From NCBI GenBank assembly GCA_003567725.1, contig PWYU01000086.1:1-64000 (forward strand): a stretch of 64,000 nucleotides of DNA, in the 5' to 3' direction. A program made the translations under genes and the position numbers. The notes beneath the pieces were generated by a model, which did no database searches, was not told the origin of the DNA, and worked only from the letters and a program-made list of their open reading frames with translations. The stretch is from Syntrophomonadaceae bacterium (GTDB lineage: Bacteria > Bacillota > Dethiobacteria > DTU022). Shown here piece after piece: positions 1 through 12,096 of this stretch. Position 1 is the first letter of the stretch; every line of letters starts with the position of its first letter.

Positions 1-69
1 ATTATTAAAACAGACGGAGCTGATTTTGAGGTGTTCAGTACTGAAAAACCGCTCCCGGCTTTGCGTTAG
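1..69 (+). CDS. C-terminal end of an upstream gene (partial)
   Basis: Frame 1 is open from the window edge to a TAG at 67-69 and encodes 22 residues ending in PLPALR. The next gene begins 78 bases later with its own ribosome site, so this is most likely the tail of a gene running in from the left. The piece is too short to assign a family, and it could be chance. Confidence 0.35.
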   Translation: MIKTDGADFEVFSTEKPLPALR

Positions 70-147
70 CCTTTTTTAACATAAAGGAAATTTGGCCAAA
101 GCTGAAGAATTATTAGTTAGGATGAAGCTGTGCCGGGGAGGAAGAAT

Positions 148-723
148 ATGGAACCTGAAGAGCTGAGAAAACTGGTTAATAAAAGTGACAATGAAGCACG
201 GCGCCAGCTTTTTGAAGCTTATTACAAAAAAACCTTCGCTGTAGCATATAATATTTTGCGCAATCGGGAAAATGCCGAAGATATAACTCAGGATGCTTTT
301 ATAAAAGCCTTTCAAAAGATACATCAACTGCAGGATCAAACCAAATTTGGAGCCTGGCTGGCCGTTATCGCCTCCAACCTGGCCCGCAACTTTCTAAAAC
401 GCGAAAAAAGAATTGATTACACTGATGAAGAAATAATAATTGAAAACTCTTCTGAGGCAAATTATACCGAGGAAATAGCTATGCGCAGCCTTGAAATAGA
501 CCGGGTTCAGCAGGCCATTAAAGCACTGCCCCCTGATCATTACCAGGTTGTGGTCCTCCAGTATTACTACGACCTACGGGTAGAAGAAATAGCTTCCATG
601 CTCAAGTTAAGTCCGGGAACGGTAAAATCACGCCTTCACCGCGCCCGTCAAAGGTTGGCAAAAAATTTGGAACTTGAGAACGATTCTGCTTGTCATAGAG
701 ATAAAGGAAGTGAGCGGGAATAA
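148..723 (+). CDS. ECF-type RNA polymerase sigma factor
   Basis: A 191-residue sigma-70 family protein of the extracytoplasmic function class, which would direct RNA polymerase to a stress regulon. Region 2 is visible around residues 20-85, with the core-binding signature NAEDITQDAF at about 42-51. A region 4 helix-turn-helix lies at about 150-168 (LSPGTVKSRLHRAR). The linker is short, as expected for ECF factors. ATG 148 is preferred over an in-frame GTG at 130 because GGGGAGGAAG lies just upstream. The stop overlaps the start of the next gene by one base, so the two are translationally coupled. The partner looks like its anti-sigma factor; the target regulon cannot be read here. Confidence 0.9.
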   Translation: MEPEELRKLVNKSDNEARRQLFEAYYKKTFAVAYNILRNRENAEDITQDAFIKAFQKIHQLQDQTKFGAWLAVIASNLARNFLKREKRIDYTDEEIIIENSSEANYTEEIAMRSLEIDRVQQAIKALPPDHYQVVVLQYYYDLRVEEIASMLKLSPGTVKSRLHRARQRLAKNLELENDSACHRDKGSERE

Positions 724-1502
724 TGATAGATCAACAAAAACCTGAACCATTAAATGATGATCTAATCCGCCAGGCTTTGGTGCGCGATTTTGATTCTATA
801 GAAGCCCCTCCCGCAGATAGATGCTGGCGCCAGATTGAAGCAAAGCTGCAAGATGAAATTGCCTATAACCGGAAAAGCCATGCCAAAGGGACCCGTTACG
901 CGGCTCTGGCTGCCGCGGCCCTCCTGCTAATTGTTTTAAGCAGTATTGGGATAATGCAAAGAACTGATCTTGCTTCTCCCATGGTAGAGGAAGAAATTCC
1001 GGCAAGAGCGCCCGAAGAAGAAATAGAGGTTTTAGATACTGAAGTTGTCGAGCCTCATGGTAAAGAGGCAAAAGAGGTCGAGCTATTTGTGGATGAGCAG
1101 GCGGTTAGTGAACAGCCTCCTTTTGAAGCTGTAGTTGATCCATCTCCTCCTCCCTGGCAAGAGGTTATAGACGATAACTTTTTATTCGACCAGGCTATCC
1201 TGTTAAGTGCAGGGGACGGCCCTGATTACCATGGAGCTATCTATCACGGAGAAGAAGAGCAGCTGTTATGGATAAAATCAAAAGTTCAACAGGAAGATAC
1301 AACCAGTTTTATTTTAAATCTTGGCGATCATATCCAGGCTGAGCCCAGCCGGATGGAGGAGGTAAACGGTTATGTTCATTTTGAAACGGCCGGTCAACCG
1401 GGCCTGGCCTGGCATGAAGACGACCATAACCAGGCCCTGGTAGTAATGTCCGGTCCCGTCTCGTTAGAGCAGCTTGAAAGCATTGCTGTTGAAATGGATT
1501 AA
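723..1502 (+). CDS. Putative anti-sigma factor, single-pass membrane protein
   Basis: A 259-residue protein coupled to the ECF sigma gene by a one-base overlap. Residues 1-58 are hydrophilic and probably cytoplasmic, about 59-78 form one membrane helix (AALAAAALLLIVLSSIGIM), and an acidic Glu/Pro-rich spacer of about 60 residues follows. The C-terminal ~110 residues form a compact extracytoplasmic domain with the look of the DUF4367-type domains found in RsiX/RsgI-like anti-sigma proteins. No zinc-binding HxxxCxxC anti-sigma motif is seen at the N-terminus, so the assignment rests on operon position and topology. The gene ends at the left edge of an R2 repeat. Confidence 0.65.
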   Translation: MIDQQKPEPLNDDLIRQALVRDFDSIEAPPADRCWRQIEAKLQDEIAYNRKSHAKGTRYAALAAAALLLIVLSSIGIMQRTDLASPMVEEEIPARAPEEEIEVLDTEVVEPHGKEAKEVELFVDEQAVSEQPPFEAVVDPSPPPWQEVIDDNFLFDQAILLSAGDGPDYHGAIYHGEEEQLLWIKSKVQQEDTTSFILNLGDHIQAEPSRMEEVNGYVHFETAGQPGLAWHEDDHNQALVVMSGPVSLEQLESIAVEMD

Positions 1503-1571
1503 CTACTCAGCTATTGTTCTTGTTAAATGATAAGCGTCCCCTGTGGCTTAGCGGGCTATGCTTGAGTAGTT
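1501..1571. repeat. R2 repeat copy 1 (MITE-like, internally deleted)
   Basis: The element runs from AACTACTCAG at 1501 to CTTGAGTAGTT at 1561-1571, which are near-perfect inverted ends. Inside, CTTGTTAAATGATAAGCG (1519-1536) and TCCCCTGTGGCTTAGCGGGCT match copies at 50.5 kb (reverse orientation) and 35.0 kb (same orientation). The hairpin arm GGGGACGG found in those copies is missing here. The stop codon of the preceding gene overlaps the first bases of the element. Confidence 0.6.
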
Positions 1572-1605
1572 TCGAAACGGATTAATTTACGCTGGGTCAT
1601 TTAAA

Positions 1606-2598
1606 CTATTGCTCCAGGTATTTCATCATTTTGCGCAGCTTCTGACCAACTTTTACGATCAGATGATTCTCTTCCTTCTTTCGCAATGCTTTAAATTTAG
1701 GCTGGTTAGCCTGGTTTTCGGTTATCCACTCCAGGGCAAACTGCCCATTTTGGATTTCTTCTAGAATGGTTTTCATTTCTGCCCTGACTTTGTCATTAAC
1801 GATGCGAGGCCCCCTGGTAAAATCACCGTATTCAGCGGTGTCGCTTACCGAATAATGCATTTTTTCTAAGCCGCCTTCATAAATAAGGTCGACAATAAGT
1901 TTTAATTCATGAAGACATTCGAAATAAGCTATTTCAGGCTGGTAGCCCGCTTCCACTAAAGTTTCAAAGCTGGCTTTAATAAGAGCTGATGTTCCTCCAC
2001 AAAGGATTACCTGTTCTCCGAACAAATCTGTTTCAGTTTCTTCCTGGAAAGTAGTTTCAATAACACCGGCCCTTGTACAGCCGATACCTTTGGCATAGGC
2101 CAGCGCAAGATCCTTTGCTTTGCCGCTATAATCTTGATGGATGGCCAGCAGACCTGGAACGCCGGCTCCTTCCTGGTGCAGTCTCCTTACCAGATGTCCC
2201 GGGCTTTTAGGAGCAATCATGAAAACATCAATATTTTCTGGTGGTATGATCTGGTTGTAAAGAATATTAAAGCCATGCGAAACCACGATCGCCTTACCTT
2301 CGGTTAGATAGGGTAAAACTGACTCATGATAAACAGCAGGCTGATGGTTGTCGCCAATCAAGATTTGGATAATGTCCGCCTTTTTTGCAGCTTCATCAAC
2401 AGTTGCGACTTCTAAGCCGTCTTTTATGGCCTGATTCCAGCTATTGCTGTTTTGCCTTAGACCGACAATTACATCTAACCCGCTGTCCTTTAAATTTTGA
2501 GCTTGAGCATGCCCCTGGCTGCCGTAACCTAAAACAGCGATCGTTTTGTTTTTCAAAATACTTAAATCTGCGTCCTGGTCATAATACATTTCCGCCAT
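1606..2598 (-). CDS. ilvC: Ketol-acid reductoisomerase (NADP+)
   Basis: A 330-residue class I (short) ketol-acid reductoisomerase. It converts 2-acetolactate or 2-aceto-2-hydroxybutyrate to the dihydroxy acid in valine/leucine/isoleucine synthesis. The N-terminal Rossmann domain has [17 protein letters not shown]. The loop GLRQNSNSW with Arg and Ser suggests NADPH preference. The C-terminal knotted domain carries the Mg-binding acidic residues in [10 protein letters not shown] and [22 protein letters not shown] 2598 is chosen over a 31-codon upstream extension because GGGAGGATTATAACA precedes it and families start MAEMYYD. The gene stands alone, without ilvB/N/D. Repeat R1 copy A lies only about 30 bases upstream, so its promoter may lie in or beyond that repeat. 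Confidence 0.95.
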
Positions 2599-2629
2599 TG
2601 TTATAATCCTCCCTAAAAATATAATAACT

Positions 2630-2901
2630 TGTTTCTGCTCAGCCACACCGGACTGTTGACTAAATTGCCTGCAATTAGAAGCTGTGCGCAAGATTTTTAA
2701 GGCAAAAACTGTAACGTCTTAGCGTCGGCTCTCCGTCCGGGCTTCCCTTACTATAAACCAATCGTAAGCACTCGCTCGGCGGGCAGCTTCCTGCGGCCCG
2801 TTTCGGGCCTCGCCAGTATTTTCAAGCCTTCACTTCATGCTCGTCCGAGTTTTCCTTGCAGACTTGCCAGGTTAATGTTAAACAGGCTAAGCTTTCACAA
2901 T
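2630..2901 (-). repeat. R1 repeat, copy A, upstream of ilvC
   Basis: About 270 bases that align, on the minus strand, with 6054-6345 and in part with 48347-48505. Shared blocks, read toward ilvC, are AGCCTGTTT..TTAACCTGGCAAG near the distal end, AAGCCCGGA.GGAG..CG.CGCTAA in the middle, and CAATTTAGTCAACAG.CCGGTG.GGCTGAGCAGAA at the gene-proximal end. A local hairpin GGCCCGAAACGGGCC sits where copy B has a different hairpin, GGCTGGC-AGAAA-GCCAGCC. There is no credible ORF. The copy ends about 30 bases before the ilvC ATG, in the same orientation relative to the gene as the other two copies. Confidence 0.7.
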
Positions 2902-3127
2902 AACTTAATAAATTAGATGTTTTTAACAAAATTCCTGCCTTTTTTTAAGTAAAGTTTTACCCTAAAATTAAGTTCATATTTCTTTTTGAGGTAATTGCTG
3001 GTTGTTATCATAATTTAGAAAGCCTGAAAACTAACGAATAAAATTTGCAAAGTGTTTACATATTGCTTTTTATTGCCGCTATCATTGCCTTTGCTCAATT
3101 TCTGCCCGTAGTGGTTGGTTATGCGTA

Positions 3128-3136
3128 TGTTATAAT
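3128..3136 (+). promoter_or_regulatory. Possible extended -10 promoter element
   Basis: TGTTATAAT (TG-n-TATAAT) lies about 65 bases upstream of the next gene. No good -35 box is seen at the usual distance. The AT-rich stretch from 2902 to 3180 shows nothing else that can be named. Confidence 0.35.
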
Positions 3137-3201
3137 GTCAGCAATACGTTGTTATTAGCGAAAATGACGGTATTTTTTAAAGGAGTATTTAAAAAAATGT
3201 C

Positions 3202-3954
3202 ATGGAAAGGCTACTTGAATTTAGTTTTTTTATTAATCAGTTTTCTAATGTAATAGTGCTCATTGTAACTCAATTTATAAATGGCCTGCTTGTAATCCAT
3301 AAAAATGTAAAAGTTAACTATACCAGAAAAATAAATCATTTTATGCTTTTTTTTGTTCCGATTTTTTTGAACCGGGGATATGCCCATGAAGAAGCTTTTG
3401 GACTCTATGCTTTAGGAGCAATTCTTGCTGTAGCAAAATTTATTTTTTATATCAAGCCCATACGTGACCGGGTGCATTTCATTAGAGTAATGTTTCATTC
3501 TTTTGATCGCCCGGAAGATCGTCCCTATACGCTATTATGGATTGTTACTCAGACAGCAGCAGGATATGTAATACTTATACCTGCCAGCATCATTTTCGCT
3601 TATTACGATCTTTTTCATTTGGTGGTAATTCCTATTCTTATTTATGGTATTGGGGATGGACTGGCCGAACCGGTGGGCGTTCGATTTGGCAAACATGAAT
3701 ACCAAACTTACGCCCTGTTTTCCCGGCGGACCTATATCCGTACCCTAGAAGGCAGTGCCGTGGTCTTCTTAACGAGCCTTGTTGTTGTCGGTGCTTTTTA
3801 TAATTACTTTACCACCCTGCAGTTCGCTGCGGCTATGGCTGTTATACCTCTTCTGCTGACCCTGGTGGAGGCTTTTTCACCTCATACCTGGGATTCGCCG
3901 ACCATATTTTTTGCAGGTTATATTGCTCTTTTTGGCATTATGGTCCTGCTCTAA
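3202..3954 (+). CDS. CTP-dependent diacylglycerol/phytol/dolichol kinase-like membrane protein
   Basis: A 250-residue, strongly hydrophobic protein with about six membrane helices. The hallmark is GIGDGLAEPVGVRFGKHEY (about residues 150-168), typical of the CTP-dependent lipid kinase/phosphatidate cytidylyltransferase-like superfamily (dolichol kinase, phytol kinase, yeast Dgk1). The following RTYIRTLEGS and PHTWDSPTIFFAGY fit the same family. It probably phosphorylates a prenol or diacylglycerol in the membrane; the exact substrate is unknown. The start is doubtful. AGGAG at 3181-3185 points to ATG 3197, whose frame gives MSWKGYLNLVF and then stops after 18 codons. Adding one T to the T7 run at 3225-3231 would join that start to this ORF. 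Confidence 0.7.
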   Translation: MERLLEFSFFINQFSNVIVLIVTQFINGLLVIHKNVKVNYTRKINHFMLFFVPIFLNRGYAHEEAFGLYALGAILAVAKFIFYIKPIRDRVHFIRVMFHSFDRPEDRPYTLLWIVTQTAAGYVILIPASIIFAYYDLFHLVVIPILIYGIGDGLAEPVGVRFGKHEYQTYALFSRRTYIRTLEGSAVVFLTSLVVVGAFYNYFTTLQFAAAMAVIPLLLTLVEAFSPHTWDSPTIFFAGYIALFGIMVLL

Positions 3955-4029
3955 GCTGCTCTTTTATTTCAGGGTTCATTAGTGTTATAGTAATAATGAG
4001 ACTACTATTTGAACAGGGGTATGGTGTTA

Positions 4030-5001
4030 ATGCGCAAAACAATTACTTCTAGGCGAAAGGCCATGGTATTATGCGCAGGTGTGCTGGTTTGCCTATTATG
4101 CGGTGGCTGCCCGGCTGAAGAACCGGTAGAACCTGAGCGGAAGGTTCGTCTTGCTGCCAATGAGCATTTTATTATCGAAGAAGAAGGATTAAACCTGCTT
4201 GAAGAAGAATACGGCCTGATTTTCGATGAAATTCATGAAATGGCTGTTGGGCTAACCCATGAAGCTCTCAAAATGGGGGATGTTGATGTAGCAGTAGGTT
4301 TTACCACCGATGGGAAAATTAAAGAATTAGAACTGGTCAAGCTTAAAGATGATCAGAAAGTTTTTCCCGTCAGCAACCCTGCTCCCCTGGTTCGAGAAAA
4401 TGTTTTGGAACAGTATCCCCAGATTGAGGCAATCATGGCTGAAATATCTTCCAGGCTGGATAACCAAACCATGATCGAACTAAATTACCAGGTCGATTTA
4501 GAAGAAAATGAACCGGTGGATGTAGCAAGAAAATGGCTTCTTGAAGAAGAATTAATTACAAAAAAAGATAGAATTCCACTGGATGGCGATGTGGTTGTTG
4601 TCGGTTCGAAAGAGTTTGTGGAACAAAATATTTTGGGCCAGATTGCCACCCTTGCTTTAGAAGATGCCGGAATTCCAGTTGAGAAAAAAGAGCCTATTGC
4701 CGGAACAGAAGCAATCAGAAGGGCAATCCTGCTGGAAGGTATTGATTTATACTGGGAGTATACAGGTGTTGCCTGGCAGGAAGTTTATGAAAAAGAAGAA
4801 AGGCTTTGCGATCCGGAACAGGTTTTCAAGAAAGTATCTGAAAAAGATGCAAAAATTGGCTTAACCTGGTTGGATTATGCGCCTTTGAATAAAACCTATA
4901 CTCTTATGATGCGCCGTGAAGATGCAATTTCTTATGAAATAGATTCTATCAGCGATTTGTCAAAATGGACTGAGCAGGTTCGCGCGGGAGAGTCGCAGTA
5001 A
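4030..5001 (+). CDS. OpuAC-type compatible-solute-binding lipoprotein with swapped half-domains
   Basis: A 323-residue secreted lipoprotein. Signal peptide residues 1-26 end in LLCGGC with lipid-modified Cys27. Residues ~38-180 match the C-terminal half of glycine betaine/osmoprotectant-binding (OpuAC, PF04069) proteins: GLTHEALKMGDVDVAVGFTT, FPVSNPAPLVRENVLEQYP and LNYQVDLEENEPVDVARKWL. Residues ~185-323 match the N-terminal half: VVVGSKEFVEQNILGQI, GIDLYWEYTGVAWQ and TWLDYAPLNKTYTL. The order is thus circularly permuted relative to the OpuCC/ProX arrangement. ATG 4030 is chosen because AGGGG sits about 10 bases upstream; TTG 4009 and ATG 4021 are less well placed. No ATPase or permease gene is adjacent. 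It overlaps the next gene by one base. Confidence 0.75.
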   Translation: MRKTITSRRKAMVLCAGVLVCLLCGGCPAEEPVEPERKVRLAANEHFIIEEEGLNLLEEEYGLIFDEIHEMAVGLTHEALKMGDVDVAVGFTTDGKIKELELVKLKDDQKVFPVSNPAPLVRENVLEQYPQIEAIMAEISSRLDNQTMIELNYQVDLEENEPVDVARKWLLEEELITKKDRIPLDGDVVVVGSKEFVEQNILGQIATLALEDAGIPVEKKEPIAGTEAIRRAILLEGIDLYWEYTGVAWQEVYEKEERLCDPEQVFKKVSEKDAKIGLTWLDYAPLNKTYTLMMRREDAISYEIDSISDLSKWTEQVRAGESQ

Positions 5002-5993
5002 TGGAATTACCTCCTTTATCAGGCAATATATTTTCTACAAATCATAAAATAGAACGAGTATCCCGCTGGTTTTGCTTGTTCTTTATCGTTTTTCTATCTA
5101 TTATTCTTTACCAGTTCTGGTATCCACTTCGTGACACCGAGTTCACCTATTCAATTGTTTCTACTACTGTTTATAATCCTGTGCTGCTGTATTTATTTAG
5201 AGTAATCACTACTCTTGGCAGTGAAGGATTCTTCCTGGTATTCCTGTCTGCAATATACTGGTCGTACAACAAATCCTTAGGTTTTTGGGGTTTAATCTTG
5301 ATGCCCCTGGCAATTTTTGTGACCAGTGAAATACCTAAAGATATCATTAGATTGCCCCGCCCTGATGTGCGTGGTATTACCGTCCCAACTTATACCTTTC
5401 CCAGCGGCCATACTTCAGGAGCGGTGAGTGTTTGGGGTTATATGGCAATTATGCTCAAAAAACGCTGGCTATGGATTTGGGCGGTGGTGATTGTTTTACT
5501 AATTGGCCTTTCCAGGGTTACTTTAGGTTACCATTACCCGGGAGATGTTATCGGTGGTATTGTTACTGGAATGGTTTTTTTGGCCATTTTTCTGATAACA
5601 GGAATAGGCATGATCGAAAGCAGGATTCATGAAAAATTTTCTTTTTCAATGCTTATATTATTAGCTCTGGTTATTCCAATTGGCCTGTCTTTGCTTCCTG
5701 CCACCTATGCTCCTAATTTGATGGGTTATTTAGCCGGAGCAGGGGTTGGGAGGCTTCTGGAAAAAGAAAAATTAAATTTCGACCAGGGCGGTCACTGGTA
5801 CCAGCACCTGGCCAGATCTTTGATTGGCATGTTTGTCATAGCTCTGATCATCCTGGAACTGGGAGCTATTCTTCCGACCAACATACCGGTGTTCACCTTT
5901 ACAATTCATGCTTTATCCACTTTTTGGGCTACCTATCTTGCGCCGCTCATTTTTGTAAAAACCGGTTTGGCCCAAGTAAATAATTATAATTAG
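5001..5993 (+). CDS. PAP2-family membrane phosphatase
   Basis: A 330-residue polytopic membrane protein of the phosphatidic acid phosphatase type 2 family, which removes phosphate from lipid phosphates or undecaprenyl pyrophosphate at the outer membrane face. All three catalytic motifs are present: K113-x6-RP (KDIIRLPRP), PSGH at 134-137 (FPSGHTSGAV), and SR-x5-H-x3-D at about 171-182 (SRVTLGYHYPGD). The C-terminal half adds further helices beyond the core, a layout seen in some Firmicutes PAP2 proteins. It is coupled to the preceding lipoprotein gene by a one-base overlap. The substrate is not determined. Confidence 0.85.
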   Translation: MELPPLSGNIFSTNHKIERVSRWFCLFFIVFLSIILYQFWYPLRDTEFTYSIVSTTVYNPVLLYLFRVITTLGSEGFFLVFLSAIYWSYNKSLGFWGLILMPLAIFVTSEIPKDIIRLPRPDVRGITVPTYTFPSGHTSGAVSVWGYMAIMLKKRWLWIWAVVIVLLIGLSRVTLGYHYPGDVIGGIVTGMVFLAIFLITGIGMIESRIHEKFSFSMLILLALVIPIGLSLLPATYAPNLMGYLAGAGVGRLLEKEKLNFDQGGHWYQHLARSLIGMFVIALIILELGAILPTNIPVFTFTIHALSTFWATYLAPLIFVKTGLAQVNNYN

Positions 5994-6053
5994 GAAGAAA
6001 GTTCTAAAAAATAGTAACGGGATGCATATATTTGATTATTATTGTATAATAAT

Positions 6054-6345
6054 ATCGTGACTGTTCAGCCTGTTTTATCTTAACCTGGCAAGCCTGAAAT
6101 TAATGTTCAGGTTAAAAGCATTAAGTGAGGGTTTGAAATTGCCGCCGGAGCGAAGCCCGAAGCGGCCTGGCTGGCAGAAAGCCAGCCACCGGGCCAGAGC
6201 TTGATATCAGTTTATCGCTAAAAAAGCCCGGATGAAGGAACGAAGCTAAACTGCTGCCATTTCTGCCTGAATGATCTGCGAGCACAGTTTTAATTTCAGG
6301 AAATTTAATCAACAGCCCGGTGGTGGCTGAGCAGAAGCATAATAT
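6054..6345 (+). repeat. R1 repeat, copy B, upstream of rubrerythrin
   Basis: About 290 bases, the longest copy of the R1 family. Visible hairpins include TTAACCTG..CAGGTTAA (6080-6115 region), GGCTGGC-AGAAA-GCCAGCC and CAGCC-CGGTGGT-GGCTG near the gene-proximal end. A good -10 box, TATAAT at 6045-6050, lies four bases before the repeat, so the repeat may form the 5' part of the rubrerythrin transcript. The stretch 5994-6406 holds only this element and flanking AT-rich DNA. A 63-codon minus-strand ORF inside it shows no family resemblance. Confidence 0.7.
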
Positions 6346-6406
6346 CTAATTAACTGACGTGCTGAGCCTACTCAGCAGAATAAACAAAACAGGAGGATGA
6401 TTAACT

Positions 6407-6979
6407 ATGAGTTTGAAAGGAACAAAAACTGAAAAAAACCTTTTAACCGCCTTTGCAGGAGAATCTCAGGCCAGGAACCGCTACACTTATTTTGCCAGCC
6501 AGGCAAAAAAAGATGGTTACGTTCAGATCTCTGCAATTTTTGAAGAAACTGCAAACCAGGAAAAAGAGCATGCCAAGAGGTTGTTCAAGCATCTTGAAGG
6601 CGGGGAAGTAGAAATTCAGGCTGCTTTTCCAGCCGGCGTGATCGGTTCTACCAGGGAAAATTTGAAAGAAGCAGCCGGCGGTGAAAATTATGAGTGGACC
6701 GATATGTATCCCGGTTTTGCCAAAACCGCCAGGGAAGAAAATTTTGCTGAAATAGCTGATATATTTGAAGCCATAGCTGTGGCGGAGAAGCAGCATGAAA
6801 AACGGTACCTGGGTTTGATGGCCAATATAGATAACGGTACGGTTTTCAAAAAAGATCAAGCGGTCAAATGGTTCTGCCGTAACTGCGGTTATGTCCATGA
6901 AGGCAAGGAAGCGCCTGATGATTGCCCTTCATGTAACCACCCCCAGGACCATTTTGAAGTTATCTGCGAAAACTGGTAA
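6407..6979 (+). CDS. rbr: Rubrerythrin
   Basis: A 190-residue rubrerythrin, a cytoplasmic non-haem iron peroxidase that reduces hydrogen peroxide in anaerobes. The N-terminal four-helix domain carries the diiron ligands in [26 protein letters not shown], and [22 protein letters not shown]. The C-terminal rubredoxin-like domain has [10 protein letters not shown] and CPSCNH, two CxxC pairs that bind one iron. The length is typical. A strong ribosome site (AGGAGGATG) precedes ATG 6407. The gene is monocistronic, bounded by a GC-rich hairpin downstream and repeat R1 upstream. Confidence 0.97.
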
Positions 6980-6990
6980 AGTTAAACGCA

Positions 6991-7013
6991 AGGGCCCGGT
7001 AAAACCGGGCCCT
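6991..7013 (+). terminator. Terminator hairpin of rubrerythrin gene
   Basis: A 10-bp perfect stem, AGGGCCCGGT / ACCGGGCCCT, with an AAA loop starts 11 bases after the rubrerythrin stop. The T-tract normally expected after the stem is absent, replaced within nine bases by a group II intron-like sequence. Confidence 0.75.
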
Positions 7014-7021
7014 GCCACATG

Positions 7022-7195
7022 GTGCTTCCGCCGTGGGCGTTAACCTGATGGTTAAAGTCCGTTGTGTCCTGGCAGGGTTAACCATCAGCTGAGGGCAAGG
7101 AGGTCTCCCTCGGGACGGAATCTAAATGAAGTCCAAGGCAAATTCCCGGTTCGATGAACAAGAACCGTTTGCTTTAGCTTTTAATGCTTGAAAAT
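7022..7195 (+). mobile_element. 5' fragment of a group II (probably IIC) intron, domain I only
   Basis: The sequence begins GTGCTTCCG, in line with the GUGYG 5' end of group II introns. It contains a run of domain I landmarks in order: AGTCC, GGGCAAGGAGG, GGACGGAATCT, GAAGTCCAAGGCAAA, GGTTCGATGAACAAGAACCG. From memory these match the order and spacing of the Oceanobacillus iheyensis IIC intron domain I (GCAAGGGUGUC, GACAUGGAAUCUGAAGGAAG, GGCAAAC, GGUCUGAGGAACACGAAC). No reverse transcriptase ORF and no domain V/VI follow, so it is a dead remnant. It sits directly behind a terminator hairpin, which is the insertion habit of IIC introns. Exact ends are uncertain. Confidence 0.6.
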
Positions 7196-7231
7196 TAGCT
7201 CGAAGATAAAGATATTTTACCGAAAATAGTC

Positions 7232-7260
7232 TTGTCTTTAGCACAGTGATCGTATATAAT
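7232..7260 (+). promoter_or_regulatory. Sigma-A promoter of trkA leader
   Basis: TTGTCT at 7232-7237 and a perfect TATAAT at 7255-7260 are separated by 17 bases. Transcription would start near 7267, giving an untranslated leader of about 180 bases before trkA. Confidence 0.7.
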
Positions 7261-7275
7261 AAAATCAGATCGTAG

Positions 7276-7412
7276 GATCGGCAAAAAAATAATCCTTGCT
7301 GTTATAAAAAGGTCAGTTTGATAAAAATATCAAGGATGGGTGCCGATCATAATTAAGTTTAGTATACTTTTTCTCCCTGATGAGGCAGCGTAGCCGCTGT
7401 CTCTTTTTTTTT
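7276..7412 (+). promoter_or_regulatory. Structured leader with intrinsic terminator upstream of trkA (riboswitch/attenuator candidate)
   Basis: Nested helices are visible: GATCGGC (7276-7282) pairs with GCCGATC (7342-7348), and inside it ATCCTTG (7292-7298) pairs with CAAGGAT (7331-7337). An intrinsic terminator follows at 7382-7412: stem GAGGCAGCG/CGCTGTCTC, loop TAGC, then nine T residues. It ends 35 bases before the trkA start codon. The layout of aptamer-like fold plus terminator is that of an attenuated leader. It does not match the c-di-AMP (ydaO/yuaA) consensus known upstream of potassium transporters, nor any other riboswitch I recognise. Confidence 0.55.
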
Positions 7413-7447
7413 CAATACTCTTTTGAGGTGAAAGGAAGGGGTTTTTT

Positions 7448-8854
7448 ATGCACATTATTATTGTCGGGGGCGGGGGAGTAAGCTATGAACTGGCCCGGAA
7501 CCTGTCTGAAAAAAACCAGGATGTTGTAGTCATAGAAAAAAATGCAGAGAAAGCTTTACGTTTTAAAGAAGCCCTGGACGTAATGGTTATTGAAGATAAC
7601 GGCGCCAATGCTGCTATTCTGGAACAGGCAGGAGTTAAGAAAGCCGACATGGTGGTTGCGGTGACCCAGTTTGATGAAGTAAATGTAATTGCCTGCATGA
7701 TCGCCAAACAGTACGATGTCCCGATCACGGTATGCCGAATCCGGAACCAGCAGTATGTCGGTGCTTCATCGGTTCTGACCCCGCAGCAGCTGGGGATAGA
7801 TGTGGTCATTAATCCGGAAAAGGTTGCGGCTATGGAGATTTCCAAGATGCTCCACTTCCCCGAGGCCAGCGAGATAGAATATTTCAACCGGGGCAGGATT
7901 ATGATGGTGGGCATTACCGTGGAAGCAGAAGCAGGAATTGTCGGAGTCCCGCTGCGTAAACTTCCCCAAAATCTTGACATGGTTATTGTCGGAATCAGCG
8001 ATATCGAGGGCAAATTTATCGTGCCTGGCGGCGATGATGTGGTTATGCCTGGTAATAAGGTTTACCTCCTGGGCAAAAGCAAATCTTTGAAGGATATAGG
8101 ATCTCTTTTACACCATGAACAGAAAACAATCAGGCAGGTAACTATCATGGGCGGTGGTTTGATTGGAGTCCAATTGGCTCACCTGCTTGAAAAAAGTAAA
8201 CAGCGCTTTGATGTAAAAATTATTGAAAAAGATATGGAGCGCTGTGAAGAGCTGTGCCGGGATCTGGATAAGACTCTTGTTTTGGAGGGAGATGCCACCG
8301 AAATAGCCATGCTGGAAGAAGAAGATACAGAACGAGCTGATGCGGTGGTTGCCGTAACCGGCGACGACCGCAGCAATATCGTGGTGGCCCTTCTGGCCCG
8401 CCAGTTTGGGGTATCAAAAATTATCTGCGAAGTGATGCGACCTCACTATGTGCCTGTTTATAACACCCTGGGCATAGATAGTGTAATCAATCCCCGGATC
8501 CTGGCTGCATCCCGGATCCTTCGCTTAACCCGCAAAGAGGATGCTGTAGCATTTTCTCTTCTGCAGGATGAAAAAGCTGAAGTGGTTGAAATCGTATTAC
8601 CTGAAAATGCCAGCGTGGTTAATAAAAAAATTGTTAAGGCTCGATTCCCCCGGGGAATGGTTATTGGATCCATCGCCCGCGGCGATGAAGTAATCGTCCC
8701 CACTGGTGATACAATGCTTCTGCCCGGAGATCATCTGGTTATTTTTGCTATTCCCAAAGTAAGCGGTACCCTGGATCGCTTTTTTGCCCCTCCTGAGGAT
8801 AAGGAAAACAAAAGATATCTTAGAAATAAATTGGTGCACAGCGAAGACAGTTGA
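7448..8854 (+). CDS. trkA: Trk potassium uptake regulatory subunit TrkA
   Basis: A 468-residue cytoplasmic NAD(H)-binding gating subunit of the Trk potassium channel. It contains two RCK modules in tandem: Rossmann domains starting IIIVGGGGVSYELARNLSE (residues 3-21) and VTIMGGGLIGVQLAHLLEK (about 231-249), each followed by a TrkA_C ligand-binding domain (about 140-220 and 370-455). This full-length double-RCK form is typical of TrkA rather than KtrA. AAGGAAGGGG precedes ATG 7448. trkH follows after 79 bases, and the pair is read from the promoter at 7232 through the leader terminator. Confidence 0.95.
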   Translation: MHIIIVGGGGVSYELARNLSEKNQDVVVIEKNAEKALRFKEALDVMVIEDNGANAAILEQAGVKKADMVVAVTQFDEVNVIACMIAKQYDVPITVCRIRNQQYVGASSVLTPQQLGIDVVINPEKVAAMEISKMLHFPEASEIEYFNRGRIMMVGITVEAEAGIVGVPLRKLPQNLDMVIVGISDIEGKFIVPGGDDVVMPGNKVYLLGKSKSLKDIGSLLHHEQKTIRQVTIMGGGLIGVQLAHLLEKSKQRFDVKIIEKDMERCEELCRDLDKTLVLEGDATEIAMLEEEDTERADAVVAVTGDDRSNIVVALLARQFGVSKIICEVMRPHYVPVYNTLGIDSVINPRILAASRILRLTRKEDAVAFSLLQDEKAEVVEIVLPENASVVNKKIVKARFPRGMVIGSIARGDEVIVPTGDTMLLPGDHLVIFAIPKVSGTLDRFFAPPEDKENKRYLRNKLVHSEDS

Positions 8855-8933
8855 TTTTACCCTTTTATATATGTAGTATTAATAATGTATAAATGAAAAC
8901 CACAAGTAGCAATAGTTGAAGGGGATATTATTT

Positions 8934-10409
8934 TTGCGTAATTTTCGCATTCCATATTTGCTGGGAATCATGCTCCTGTTCCTGGCCCTGGCCATGCTTC
9001 TACCCGCCCTGTGGGCGGTAGCCGAACAGGGGCCGGACCGGCTGGCATTCCTAAAATCGATCCTGCTTACTGCTGTTGCAGGCGGTGCCTTATATTTTTA
9101 TTTTCTCCCTTCGCGCGGCAGTGAACTAAGCATAGTTGAAAATTTTACCGTGGTTACCCTGGCCTGGTTTGTAGCCGGTGTTTTTGGTGCTTTGCCTTTT
9201 CACTTCTATGGAGTTTTTGAAGGAAGTTTTCTCCAGGCTTTTTTTGAAGCGGTTTCCGGGTTTACAACAACCGGGGCCACCTTGATTGAAGATATTGAAG
9301 TACTGCCCCGCGGCCTGCTGCTGTGGCGGAGCTTAACCCAGTGGTTGGGTGGTATGGGAATTATTGTCCTTTTTTTGGCCGTCCTGCCCAAGTTTGGTTT
9401 TCGAAGCATGACCATGTTTAAAGCGGAAATACCCGGCCCGGTGGCTGAAAAGGTTTTGCCCAGGGTGGTCGAAACCGCCCGGCGGCTCTGGTTGATTTAC
9501 GTGGTTTTTACGGCGGTTTTAACTTTACTCTTAATGCTGAGCGGAATCAGTTTTTATGACTCTCTGGCCCATGCTTTTACCACCATGCCTACCGGTGGTT
9601 TTTCGCCATACAATGCCAGCATCGCCGCCTTCAACAACCCAGCCGCAGAAGTAATCATTATCTTTTTTATGCTTTTTGCCGGGATCAACTTTGCAATATA
9701 TTTTCGAATTATGCGTGGCGAATTCAATGTTTTAAAAAATCCGGAGTTAAGGTTTTACCTGGTGGTGATCCTGGTTGGGATCTGTCTGGTAACCGTTAAT
9801 AACTTAGAGCAAGCCGGGCAATCTCTTACTCTTGCCCTGCGGCAAAGTGCTTTTCAGGTAGTATCTATCACTACCACAACCGGTTATGCTACAGCAGACT
9901 TTAACGGCTGGCCTAATTTTTCCCGCCTTTTTTTACTGTTGGTCATGTTTATCGGCGGCTGCGGCGGCTCAACGGGGGGAGCTATGAAACAGGTGCGCTG
10001 GATGCTGATGTTTAAGTATGCCTTCCGTGAACTGTCCCGGGTTATCCATCCTTCCGCCATTTCTTCAGTCAAATTAGGCAGGCAATTTGTCAATGAAGAG
10101 GTGTTGCGGTCGGTGATGGGTTTTGGGTTCTTATATCTTTTACTTACAGTTGGTTCGACTCTGTTCCTGGCCCTGATGGGGCTGGATACTGAAACGGCCT
10201 TTTCAGCGGTAGCGGCTACGATCGGCAATGTCGGGCCCGGTCTTGGAGCTGTGGGACCGGTGGAAACATACCAGGTTATACCGCCTGCCGGCCAGTTTAT
10301 CCTTTCAATCCTGATGGTTATCGGGCGCCTGGAAATATTTACGGTCCTGGTCATTTTTCTACCCGAGTCAAGGCGGCTTTGGACCAGTGCTTTAAAAGGA
10401 AAGAGGTAG
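8934..10409 (+). CDS. trkH: Trk potassium uptake membrane subunit TrkH
   Basis: A 491-residue ion-conducting subunit with about ten membrane helices. The four pore-loop signatures of the Trk/Ktr/HKT superfamily are visible: GFTTTGATL, TTMPTGGFSPYN, TTTTGYATAD and ATIGNVGPGLG. TTG 8934 is preferred over TTG 8916 because GAAGGGG (8918-8924) is then correctly spaced. It works with TrkA just upstream. The next gene, holA, begins two bases after the stop. Confidence 0.93.
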   Translation: MRNFRIPYLLGIMLLFLALAMLLPALWAVAEQGPDRLAFLKSILLTAVAGGALYFYFLPSRGSELSIVENFTVVTLAWFVAGVFGALPFHFYGVFEGSFLQAFFEAVSGFTTTGATLIEDIEVLPRGLLLWRSLTQWLGGMGIIVLFLAVLPKFGFRSMTMFKAEIPGPVAEKVLPRVVETARRLWLIYVVFTAVLTLLLMLSGISFYDSLAHAFTTMPTGGFSPYNASIAAFNNPAAEVIIIFFMLFAGINFAIYFRIMRGEFNVLKNPELRFYLVVILVGICLVTVNNLEQAGQSLTLALRQSAFQVVSITTTTGYATADFNGWPNFSRLFLLLVMFIGGCGGSTGGAMKQVRWMLMFKYAFRELSRVIHPSAISSVKLGRQFVNEEVLRSVMGFGFLYLLLTVGSTLFLALMGLDTETAFSAVAATIGNVGPGLGAVGPVETYQVIPPAGQFILSILMVIGRLEIFTVLVIFLPESRRLWTSALKGKR

Positions 10410-10411
10410 AA

Positions 10412-11497
10412 ATGATATCTTACCAGACTTTACTGAAACAGTTTAAAGAAGAAGATTTTACTTCTGTTTATCTTTTTTACGGAGAAGAAAAATACCTTCA
10501 GCAGGAATTTCTCTTTCGTCTGGCTAAAAACTACCTGGGTTCTGAGGCTGAATTTGGTTTAGAAAAAATAGACGGCCCGGAGCATGATCTGGAAAGTATA
10601 ATAGCCGGCTTAAATGAAAGAGGGCTATTTACCCGGAGGAGAATTGTGGTCATTGAAAATCCTCCTTATCTGGCACCTCCTCGGAAAAAAGAAGACCGGG
10701 AAGAGCACGCAGAAGCATCCGCACCAGATAACCAGGAAGAAAGGAATACCGAGCTGCTAAGAGAATATATGGAGAGCCAGGATTCCGGAGAGCGGGACAG
10801 TATTATTGTTTATTTAAGTCCGGGCGCCGACCGGCGCAGGCGCTTGTATAAATTAATTGATAAAAAGGGTGTGGTTGTGGAGTGCGCTTCCCTTAAAGGT
10901 GAGTCACTTGCTGCCTGGATTCGCAAGAAAGCTGAACAACTGGGCAAAAAGATTGATCGGGCAGCAGTTGAAAAATTGCTCCTTGCAGGGGATCATAATT
11001 TACATTATCTTTCCAAAGAACTGGAGAAATATTGCGCCTATCTGGGCAATGATCATGATACAATAACAATGGATACGGTGGAAACCTTGTTCTCCGGAGA
11101 TTTGCAAGGAAATGTTTTTAAACTGGCCGATGCCCTGGCCGAAGGAAATTTGAATGAAGCCCAGGATTTTTTAAATTTGCTTCTTCAGAGGCGAGAACAA
11201 CCATTACTTATATTTTTTATGCTAACCCGTCATTACAGGATGCTTTTGCAGGCTTACAGCCTGCTGGAAGAAGGACGAAGCGGTGGTGATCTTGCATCCA
11301 TCCTGGGAGTTCAGCCTTTTGTTGCTCGGAAGTTACGGGAACAAACAGCTCTTTATAGCCGGTATACCCTTGAGGAAGCAATGCTGGCTTTGCAGAAAAC
11401 AGATCACCAGATTAAAACCGGTTGCCTTGAACCGGCTCAGGCTTTAAAATTAATATTATACCGGATTGATAATGTTCAAGCAAAGACCAGGGCATAA
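10412..11497 (+). CDS. holA: DNA polymerase III, delta subunit
   Basis: A 361-residue clamp-loader delta subunit, which opens the beta sliding clamp at the replication fork. The N-terminal segment (VYLFYGEEKYLQQEFLFRL, about residues 16-34) and the C-terminal collar helices (LADALAEGNLNEAQDFLNLLLQRREQPLLIFFML) are characteristic. ATG 10412 is chosen over an 11-codon upstream extension because AAAGAGG lies directly upstream. An acidic insert around residues 90-125 (EDREEHAEASAPDNQEERN) is longer than in Bacillus. The gene is packed tightly against trkH. The nearby convergent rpsT is the usual neighbour of holA in Firmicutes. Confidence 0.93.
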   Translation: MISYQTLLKQFKEEDFTSVYLFYGEEKYLQQEFLFRLAKNYLGSEAEFGLEKIDGPEHDLESIIAGLNERGLFTRRRIVVIENPPYLAPPRKKEDREEHAEASAPDNQEERNTELLREYMESQDSGERDSIIVYLSPGADRRRRLYKLIDKKGVVVECASLKGESLAAWIRKKAEQLGKKIDRAAVEKLLLAGDHNLHYLSKELEKYCAYLGNDHDTITMDTVETLFSGDLQGNVFKLADALAEGNLNEAQDFLNLLLQRREQPLLIFFMLTRHYRMLLQAYSLLEEGRSGGDLASILGVQPFVARKLREQTALYSRYTLEEAMLALQKTDHQIKTGCLEPAQALKLILYRIDNVQAKTRA

Positions 11498-11559
11498 TGC
11501 AAAATATAGCTGGCAAAGCAATCCATTTCATATGGAGCATCAATAAAGGAGTGATCGCG

Positions 11560-12096
11560 ATGGCCGAAAGAGCTGCATTTGATAAAGAAAAATTAATTCA
11601 AGAAGTATACCAGCGTGGTTATGAGTTGGAACAGCGCTATTATGGCTGCGCCCAGTGTGTGGTGGGGGCGATCCAGGATTTTTTTCCTTTGAATAATGCA
11701 GTCTTTAAAGCGGCCACTTCCTTTTCAGGTGGAATTGCTTCTTCTATTGAAGGCAGCTGTGGAGCGCTAAGTGGTGGCATACTGGTTCTTAGCTACTTTT
11801 TCGGTAGATCTCGCGAAGAATTTCCCGATATCAGCCTTTTGAGGCGTCCGGGCGTGCTTGTCCAGGAATACTGGGACATGTTTCGCCATAAGTATGGCGG
11901 TGAAACCTGCCGAGAAGTTCAAAACTATTATTTTGGCACTGCTTACCATTTTCTTGATAATGATGAATATTATGAATATGAACGAAGAGGGGGACATAAA
12001 GATGTTTGCCCGGTAGTAGTAGGGGAGGCCAGTGCCTGGTTGGCTGAAAAACTGCTTGAGCGCAAGGTCCCTATCTTGAAAAACAAACCCAAATAG
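11560..12096 (+). CDS. C_GCAxxG_C_C family protein (redox/transport-associated, function unknown)
   Basis: A 178-residue protein with the conserved Cys/Gly motif YGCAQCVVGAI (about residues 27-37), CGALSGGILVLSYFFG, and later CREVQNYYFG and DVCPVVVGEASAWLAE. This is the C_GCAxxG_C_C family, common in anaerobes and often near redox enzymes, with no settled function. ATG 11560 is used because AAAGGAGTGATCGCG precedes it. A 21-codon upstream extension has no support. It ends at an intrinsic terminator and follows holA, probably as the last gene of that transcript. Confidence 0.8.
   Translation: MAERAAFDKEKLIQEVYQRGYELEQRYYGCAQCVVGAIQDFFPLNNAVFKAATSFSGGIASSIEGSCGALSGGILVLSYFFGRSREEFPDISLLRRPGVLVQEYWDMFRHKYGGETCREVQNYYFGTAYHFLDNDEYYEYERRGGHKDVCPVVVGEASAWLAEKLLERKVPILKNKPK

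Follow-up and report, generated by a model that had tools for sequence, protein, structure and literature searches.

A circularly permuted OpuAC-type lipoprotein linked to a PAP2 phosphatase gene and without transporter neighbours in a Syntrophomonadaceae bacterium

Results

Gene content of the locus

The stretch of DNA analysed in this study (the window) comprises 64,000 nucleotides from one contig of a Syntrophomonadaceae bacterium. Three genes form one run on its forward strand, in which the gene of an OpuAC-type lipoprotein (P0001) stands between those of a membrane protein (P0003) and a PAP2-family phosphatase (P0002). The features considered are as follows.

3202..3954, + strand: P0003, membrane protein of 250 aa, first gene of the trio; CdsA/prenol-kinase superfamily-like (putative activity)
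4030..5001, + strand: P0001, circularly permuted OpuAC-type lipoprotein of 323 aa; PF04069 in two crossed pieces
4030..4110, + strand: signal peptide and lipobox of P0001, from the sequence, ending at the predicted lipidated Cys27 (4108-4110)
4141..4539, + strand: half B of P0001, the second lobe in standard OpuAC proteins, here placed first (PF04069 profile 114-255, E 4.3e-27)
4177..4179, + strand: Glu50, aligned with AfProX Arg149 of the carboxylate clamp
4372..4374, + strand: Ser115, aligned with the fourth cage tyrosine, AfProX Tyr214
4594..4983, + strand: half A of P0001, the first lobe in standard OpuAC proteins, here placed second (PF04069 profile 3-116, E 5.2e-20)
4768..4770, + strand: Val247, aligned with AfProX Thr66
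4891..4893, + strand: Lys288, aligned with the cage base, AfProX Asp109 (Asn in most relatives)
5001..5993, + strand: P0002, PAP2-family membrane phosphatase of 330 aa; one-base overlap with the lipoprotein stop

Half order and fold of the lipoprotein

The P0001 gene is a single open frame from the ATG at 4030 to the stop at 5001. PF04069 matched the whole protein far above its curated cut-off (167 bits against 21.2) and covered both halves, which follow each other in the order B then A (BA), whereas the profile itself runs A then B (AB); the E-values listed above for the two pieces are those of the genome scan. With a single copy of each half and an uninterrupted frame, P0001 contains neither a duplicated domain nor a frameshift. 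The original prediction, that an OpuAC-type lipoprotein is permuted here, was therefore confirmed by the crossed profile pieces, relative to OpuCC and AfProX, and what it had named as contrary outcomes, two full OpuAC domains or a frameshift, was ruled out. In P0001, Cys27 directly follows a lipobox-like stretch, and G26-C27 is invariant among 36 aligned sequences; P0001 is thus predicted to be a lipoprotein, lipidated at this cysteine.

The source is a fragmented metagenome-assembled genome, which could favour an artefact of assembly or frameshift. However, 43 distinct proteins have this order; they come from many assemblies, among them those of Syntrophomonas zehnderi OL-4 and Desulfatitalea alkaliphila, and the crystallised OpuAC of Bacillus subtilis has it too. 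This recurrence, together with the open frame, refutes the artefact, to which we give practically no weight.

The AlphaFold2 model of P0001 had a mean pLDDT of 91.6, and its five top matches in a sequential structure search were all B. subtilis OpuAC (286-306 columns aligned), while the good fit of several OpuCC- and SnFR-type structures was confined to a single half (about 144-152 columns, 1.2-2.7 Angstrom). By sequence (phmmer), the nearest proteins were of the OpuCC/OpuBC/AfProX/OsmF types, and the PDB sequence matches (OpuCC, OpuBC, AfProX, OsmF and EgtUC) also aligned crossed; the B. subtilis OpuAC structure 2b4l was absent from this phmmer list, and P0001 stayed below the curated cut-off of the OsmF family NF049931 (147 bits against 400). 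When a standard-order OpuAC protein of the same genome was used as the query, its residues 165-309 aligned with chain positions 11-155 of 2b4l and its residues 57-158 with positions 166-267. This crossed alignment indicates that B. subtilis OpuAC shares the order of P0001, with an equivalent break point.

For glycine-betaine-binding proteins, 2b4l included, circular permutation has already been reported (PMC2395249). The reversed order as such is therefore not new, and the suspicion that it might be a known form was justified: the structure comparison that had been suggested places the model closest to the family namesake, which is itself in BA order. B. subtilis OpuAC (PDB 2b4l, 2b4m, 3chg, 5nxx) resembles P0001 in half order, break point and Pfam family, but has different gene neighbours, P0001 being without a transporter.

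A conserved trio without transporter genes

The stop codon TAA of P0001 and the ATG of P0002 share one base, 5001 (TAATG). The same overlap occurs in four relatives among those listed, and others have gaps of 2-3 or 26-58 bases. The trio was present in at least 15 genomes (that of the window, G001, G002, G004, G006-G009, G011, G018, G029, G040, G423, G454 and G455), with the loci of G002 and G011 interrupted by contig ends; those relatives that carry a name are MAGs of Syntrophomonadaceae, and their isolate codes are of a sediment type. G040 and G423 have other flanking genes, so the three genes stay together as one unit. TrkA/TrkH-like genes downstream were dropped as a candidate part of this cassette, being absent beside it in the same two genomes.

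No ABC transporter genes were recognised beside the trio among the open reading frames listed for window positions 1-12000, nor alongside the cassette in any locus of the relatives examined, so that the permease and ATPase genes expected of an importer SBP of the OpuC/OsmF type were found neither at P0001 nor at its cassette relatives. The OpuC-type ATPases of the window's genome lie on other contigs (C120 and C79). These results agree with the predicted translational coupling to PAP2, with the expected recurrence of the pair in relatives and with the absence of transporter genes; the proposed unit was correct in its pairing and incomplete in its extent, since the upstream P0003 belongs to it as well. 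We found nothing on point about a cassette of the orphan-SBP or PAP2/SBP kind in the open-licence literature.

Outside the trio, BA proteins were encoded mostly in operons of the form TMD-ATPase-TMD-SBP, in several Clostridia, an Armatimonadota MAG and Desulfobacterota, and these operons sometimes adjoin genes of MTTB-family methyltransferases. As permuted relatives outside the trio usually belong to OpuC-type operons, loss of the transporter is an event distinct from permutation, which did not by itself make P0001 an orphan. These importer SBPs (for example in Syntrophomonas zehnderi and Desulfatitalea alkaliphila) share the half order and lipoprotein form of P0001, but they lie in ABC operons, keep an intact pocket and were permuted separately on the tree described below. 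In one further locus (L049, 7412-9592; L101 locus), a permuted SBP of a different lineage closes an OpuC-type operon, and a PAP2 gene with 36% identity to P0002 lies just downstream in convergent orientation.

Recurrent change of half order

The history of the half order was followed in 88 distinct proteins (43 BA and 45 AB) of the closer OpuCC/AfProX-like branch, gathered with two sequence patterns from P0001 as a sample rather than a census. The halves were aligned separately and then joined in one common order. The maximum-likelihood tree needs seven changes of half order, six of which are forced by well-supported branches; the tree is unrooted, and the changes are not separable into gains and losses. 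Constraining all BA proteins together, a group defined by half order before the tree was known, cost 462 log-likelihood units (AU p=1.6e-7), and one shared origin of all BA proteins was rejected. The order thus appears to have changed at least six to seven times in this branch.

The cassette clade (14 rows, UFB 99-100) was sister to the standard-order proteins L103/L105, and then to L099 and the genome's own C124 protein (UFB 99-100). Each half taken alone also grouped the cassette with those four proteins (SH-aLRT 91.6 and 99.7), and the two halves derive alike from L002/L099/L103/L105, a group of standard order; a derivation from other permuted importer SBPs was unsupported. On this tree, the P0001 clade arises from transporter-linked proteins of standard order, separately from the rest of the permuted proteins.

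Several present-day arrangements are of interest here. In G002, of the same genus as the window, two adjacent complete standard-order genes lie in one operon (L222 on contig 130, 3453-4376 and 4558-5490), which is of the OpuC type and adjoins an MTTB-family gene. One Anaerolineales MAG encodes a 603-aa protein in which two AB units are fused (ABAB; L080, 2019-3830), and another encodes an ABA protein ended by the contig edge (L093, 5627-6844). Such AB-AB gene pairs and ABAB and ABA proteins fit a course of tandem duplication, fusion and trimming, and are possible intermediates of it. None of them is a direct ancestor: the two repeats of L080 group together and away from the cassette clade.

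The ligand pocket

In EgtUC and its relatives, a quaternary amine is held in an aromatic pentagon, the base of which is Asn in EgtUC, and the ligand carboxylate is held by Lys, Thr and Arg (PMC9732360). We mapped the pocket from AfProX, with the numbering checked at K13, Y63, T66, D109, Y111, E145, R149, Y190 and Y214; positions were judged by alignment rather than geometry. The patterns used for the search constrain Y63 and partly position 109, and leave R149, T66 and Y214 unconstrained.

Among 74 relatives outside the cassette, most of them transporter-linked, the pocket was almost uniformly kept (K13, T66, N109 and Y214 in 74/74, R149 in 73/74). In the cassette set of 16 distinct proteins (18 rows minus two identical pairs), R149 was lost from all 16 and replaced by E, D, Q, S or A, Y214 from 15 (S, R, N, C or L instead) and T66 from 14, and the cage base, Asn/Asp109, was Lys in 12 of the 15 proteins readable there. 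In P0001 itself, the four cage positions are Y, Y, F and S and the base is Lys; of the clamp, Lys is retained, with Val for Thr66 and Glu for Arg149. P0001 thus lacks the complete betaine pocket of an OpuC/OsmF-type SBP (cage, Asn/Asp base and Lys/Thr/Arg clamp). Compared with the importer SBPs nearest to it in sequence (OpuCC, OpuBC, AfProX and EgtUC), it retains most cage aromatics but is reversed in order, has no ABC genes and has lost the carboxylate clamp and one cage Tyr. Most cassette members likewise keep three or four cage aromatics. The protein of G423, from another family, keeps T66, the Asp base and Y214 and has lost R149, which rules out a loss of the fourth cage Tyr in every member; with most of its pocket kept and R149 gone, it may represent an earlier stage of the change.

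The pocket bears directly on the two chief rivals to the reading that we prefer. P0001 could be a spare SBP for an importer encoded elsewhere, docking with a quaternary amine or related solute to another OpuC-type permease. In its favour, the genome encodes further proteins of the OpuAC family as well as OpuC-type ATPases, P0001 is folded like an importer SBP, and several cage aromatics remain; but clamp and cage tyrosine have gone in nearly all cassette members, unlike in importer-linked relatives, and linkage and coupling are conserved with lipid-type enzymes rather than with transporters. We consider this explanation unlikely.

The other rival is a compatible-solute sensor that would act on PAP2 or on the upstream enzyme and so match the lipid metabolism of the envelope to the osmotic state. 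The model for it is GbsU of Halobacillus, an OpuAC-type lipoprotein of halophiles that is likewise an orphan, with no transporter genes next to it (PMC6207618); P0001 is likened to it in these respects. GbsU, unlike P0001, lies beside glycine betaine synthesis genes and is described with its aromatic cage kept, while the cassette pocket is altered, and the trio contains no regulator or signalling domain. OpuAC domains are linked to signalling genes elsewhere in the same genome: one OpuAC-type lipoprotein lies directly upstream of a GGDEF/HD-GYP-type membrane protein (L010, contig C102, 7516-10214), at a locus without transporter genes that may encode a betaine-sensing pair, and a chemoreceptor-like signalling protein with a C-terminal OpuAC domain is followed by two GGDEF/HD-GYP-type proteins (L012, contig C32, 1552-3456). 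A sensor of this kind seems to us about as improbable as a spare SBP, and a betaine pocket, expected in both cases and not seen, argues against both.

Selection and a second copy

Pairwise dN/dS of the lipoprotein was 0.06-0.20, like that of its neighbours, with several dS values near saturation. The P0001 gene appears from these comparisons to be maintained under purifying selection. A second, divergent trio was found in the same genome (L009, contig C82, 427-3258; about 73, 54 and 63% identity), the lipoprotein gene of which has an internal in-frame TAA and is nearest to the L063/L064 lineage. In the cassette homologues of other assemblies, the B-A order is intact. The C82 gene may represent a decaying second copy or stem from an error of sequencing or binning.

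The stop in this copy, the variability of the pocket within the clade and the long branches of L067 and L029 would suit a decaying importer gene, left over after loss of the transporter, with pocket changes due to drift. Such a relic is very improbable, given the low dN/dS, the frame, lipobox and half order intact across the clade, and the Lys common to most cage bases.

The two neighbouring enzymes

P0002 matched PF01569 with 55.6 bits (cut-off 27.2) and contains the catalytic motifs KDIIRLPRP, PSGH and SR..H...D, and it scored below the cut-offs of the named NCBIfam PAP2 subfamilies. These motifs are shared with PAP2 lipid phosphatases such as PgpB, which is described in one report as acting in the synthesis of phosphatidylglycerol and undecaprenyl phosphate (PMC7413402).

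A P0003-type gene adjoined the permuted lipoprotein in all cassette loci with a contig reaching that far. P0003 had no match among the curated families of Pfam and NCBIfam, the curated cut-off of CTP_transf_1 (PF01148) included, and no PDB sequence match. A profile of P0003 picks up DUF92-fused proteins by their N-terminal domains, together with unfused neighbours of these, and the superfamily assignment rests on this bridge: hhalign gave 98.7% between P0003-type proteins and the DUF92-fused N-domains and 95.7% between the latter and CdsA, with UbiA and PAP2 controls at or below 0.4% for both profiles. The direct match of P0003 to CdsA was weak (13.7%), yet aligned the same D..A..G...GK...EGS motif, and CdsA was the top PDB fold of the P0003 model (mean pLDDT 69), a match that is not significant (E 0.037). 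P0003 may thus share with CdsA/phytol-kinase-type enzymes their signature motif and a remote profile similarity, but falls outside every curated family searched.

Paralogues of P0003 adjoin UbiA prenyltransferases; in L171, L172, L178, L179 and L180, the homologues lie divergently beside UbiA-type genes, forming a putative prenol-kinase-like/UbiA pair, and one homologue adjoins a BacA-family gene. From these relationships, we infer that P0003 is a CTP-dependent prenol or lipid-alcohol kinase-like enzyme, a reading that draws on the biochemistry of phytol kinase.

Discussion

The cassette described here combines a permuted fold (by prediction), a lipobox, a conserved and coupled trio, the absence of ABC neighbours, low dN/dS and an altered pocket, all computed. 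Judged from the pocket residues, its lipoprotein probably recognises something other than betaine at the cell surface. A precedent for another class of ligand is MtProX of Mycobacterium tuberculosis, which is reported to bind polyphenols rather than betaine, choline or carnitine (PMC5894108); by this description it is likened to P0001 as a ProX-type protein with an altered pocket.

The explanation that we favour, plausible although somewhat short of probable, is that a former betaine receptor, now permuted and importer-free, has been recruited as the outer-face ligand-binding subunit of a lipid-phosphate kinase/phosphatase module. Its ancestor would have been a transporter-linked protein of standard order that bound betaine. 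The simplest route to permutation would be a tandem duplication followed by fusion and trimming (AB-AB to BA), and the lipoprotein would also have become separated from the importer. P0001 would now be a lipid-anchored Venus-flytrap receptor at the outer face, serving a three-gene membrane module together with a PAP2 phosphatase of lipid phosphates and an enzyme that resembles CTP-dependent kinases of prenols or lipid alcohols; the module would perhaps act on prenyl phosphate. The kinase might phosphorylate a lipid alcohol at the inner face and PAP2 might remove phosphate at the membrane, while the lipoprotein, by binding a non-betaine ligand, could capture substrate or product for PAP2 or regulate it.

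Some observations speak against this recruitment. P0003 misses every curated family and its direct match to the CdsA profile is weak; the three or four cage aromatics left in most members would suit an amine-type ligand; in G423, Thr66 and Tyr214 are retained and the cage base is acidic; and the co-occurrence of the trio could mean shared regulation only. As for the sensing or envelope role raised in the original prediction, it is still possible in general terms, while the pocket changes argue against a sensor of ordinary betaines.

A more specific form of the recruitment, doubtful when taken as one joint proposal, is that the cassette is a binding-protein-dependent non-transporter, in which the permuted flytrap, its pocket charges altered, would capture a phospholipid head group, a prenyl phosphate or another anionic ligand and would hand it to, or thereby gate, a PAP2 enzyme coupled to the prenol-kinase-like enzyme.

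For this SBP subfamily, the apparent repeated change of order at the same hinge, together with extant AB-AB and ABAB forms, offers a natural series for studying the course of circular permutation. In the cassette, a betaine receptor appears to have left import for an enzyme module of lipid phosphates and to have had its pocket rebuilt; if confirmed, this would extend the roles of binding lipoproteins beyond ABC import and known sensing.
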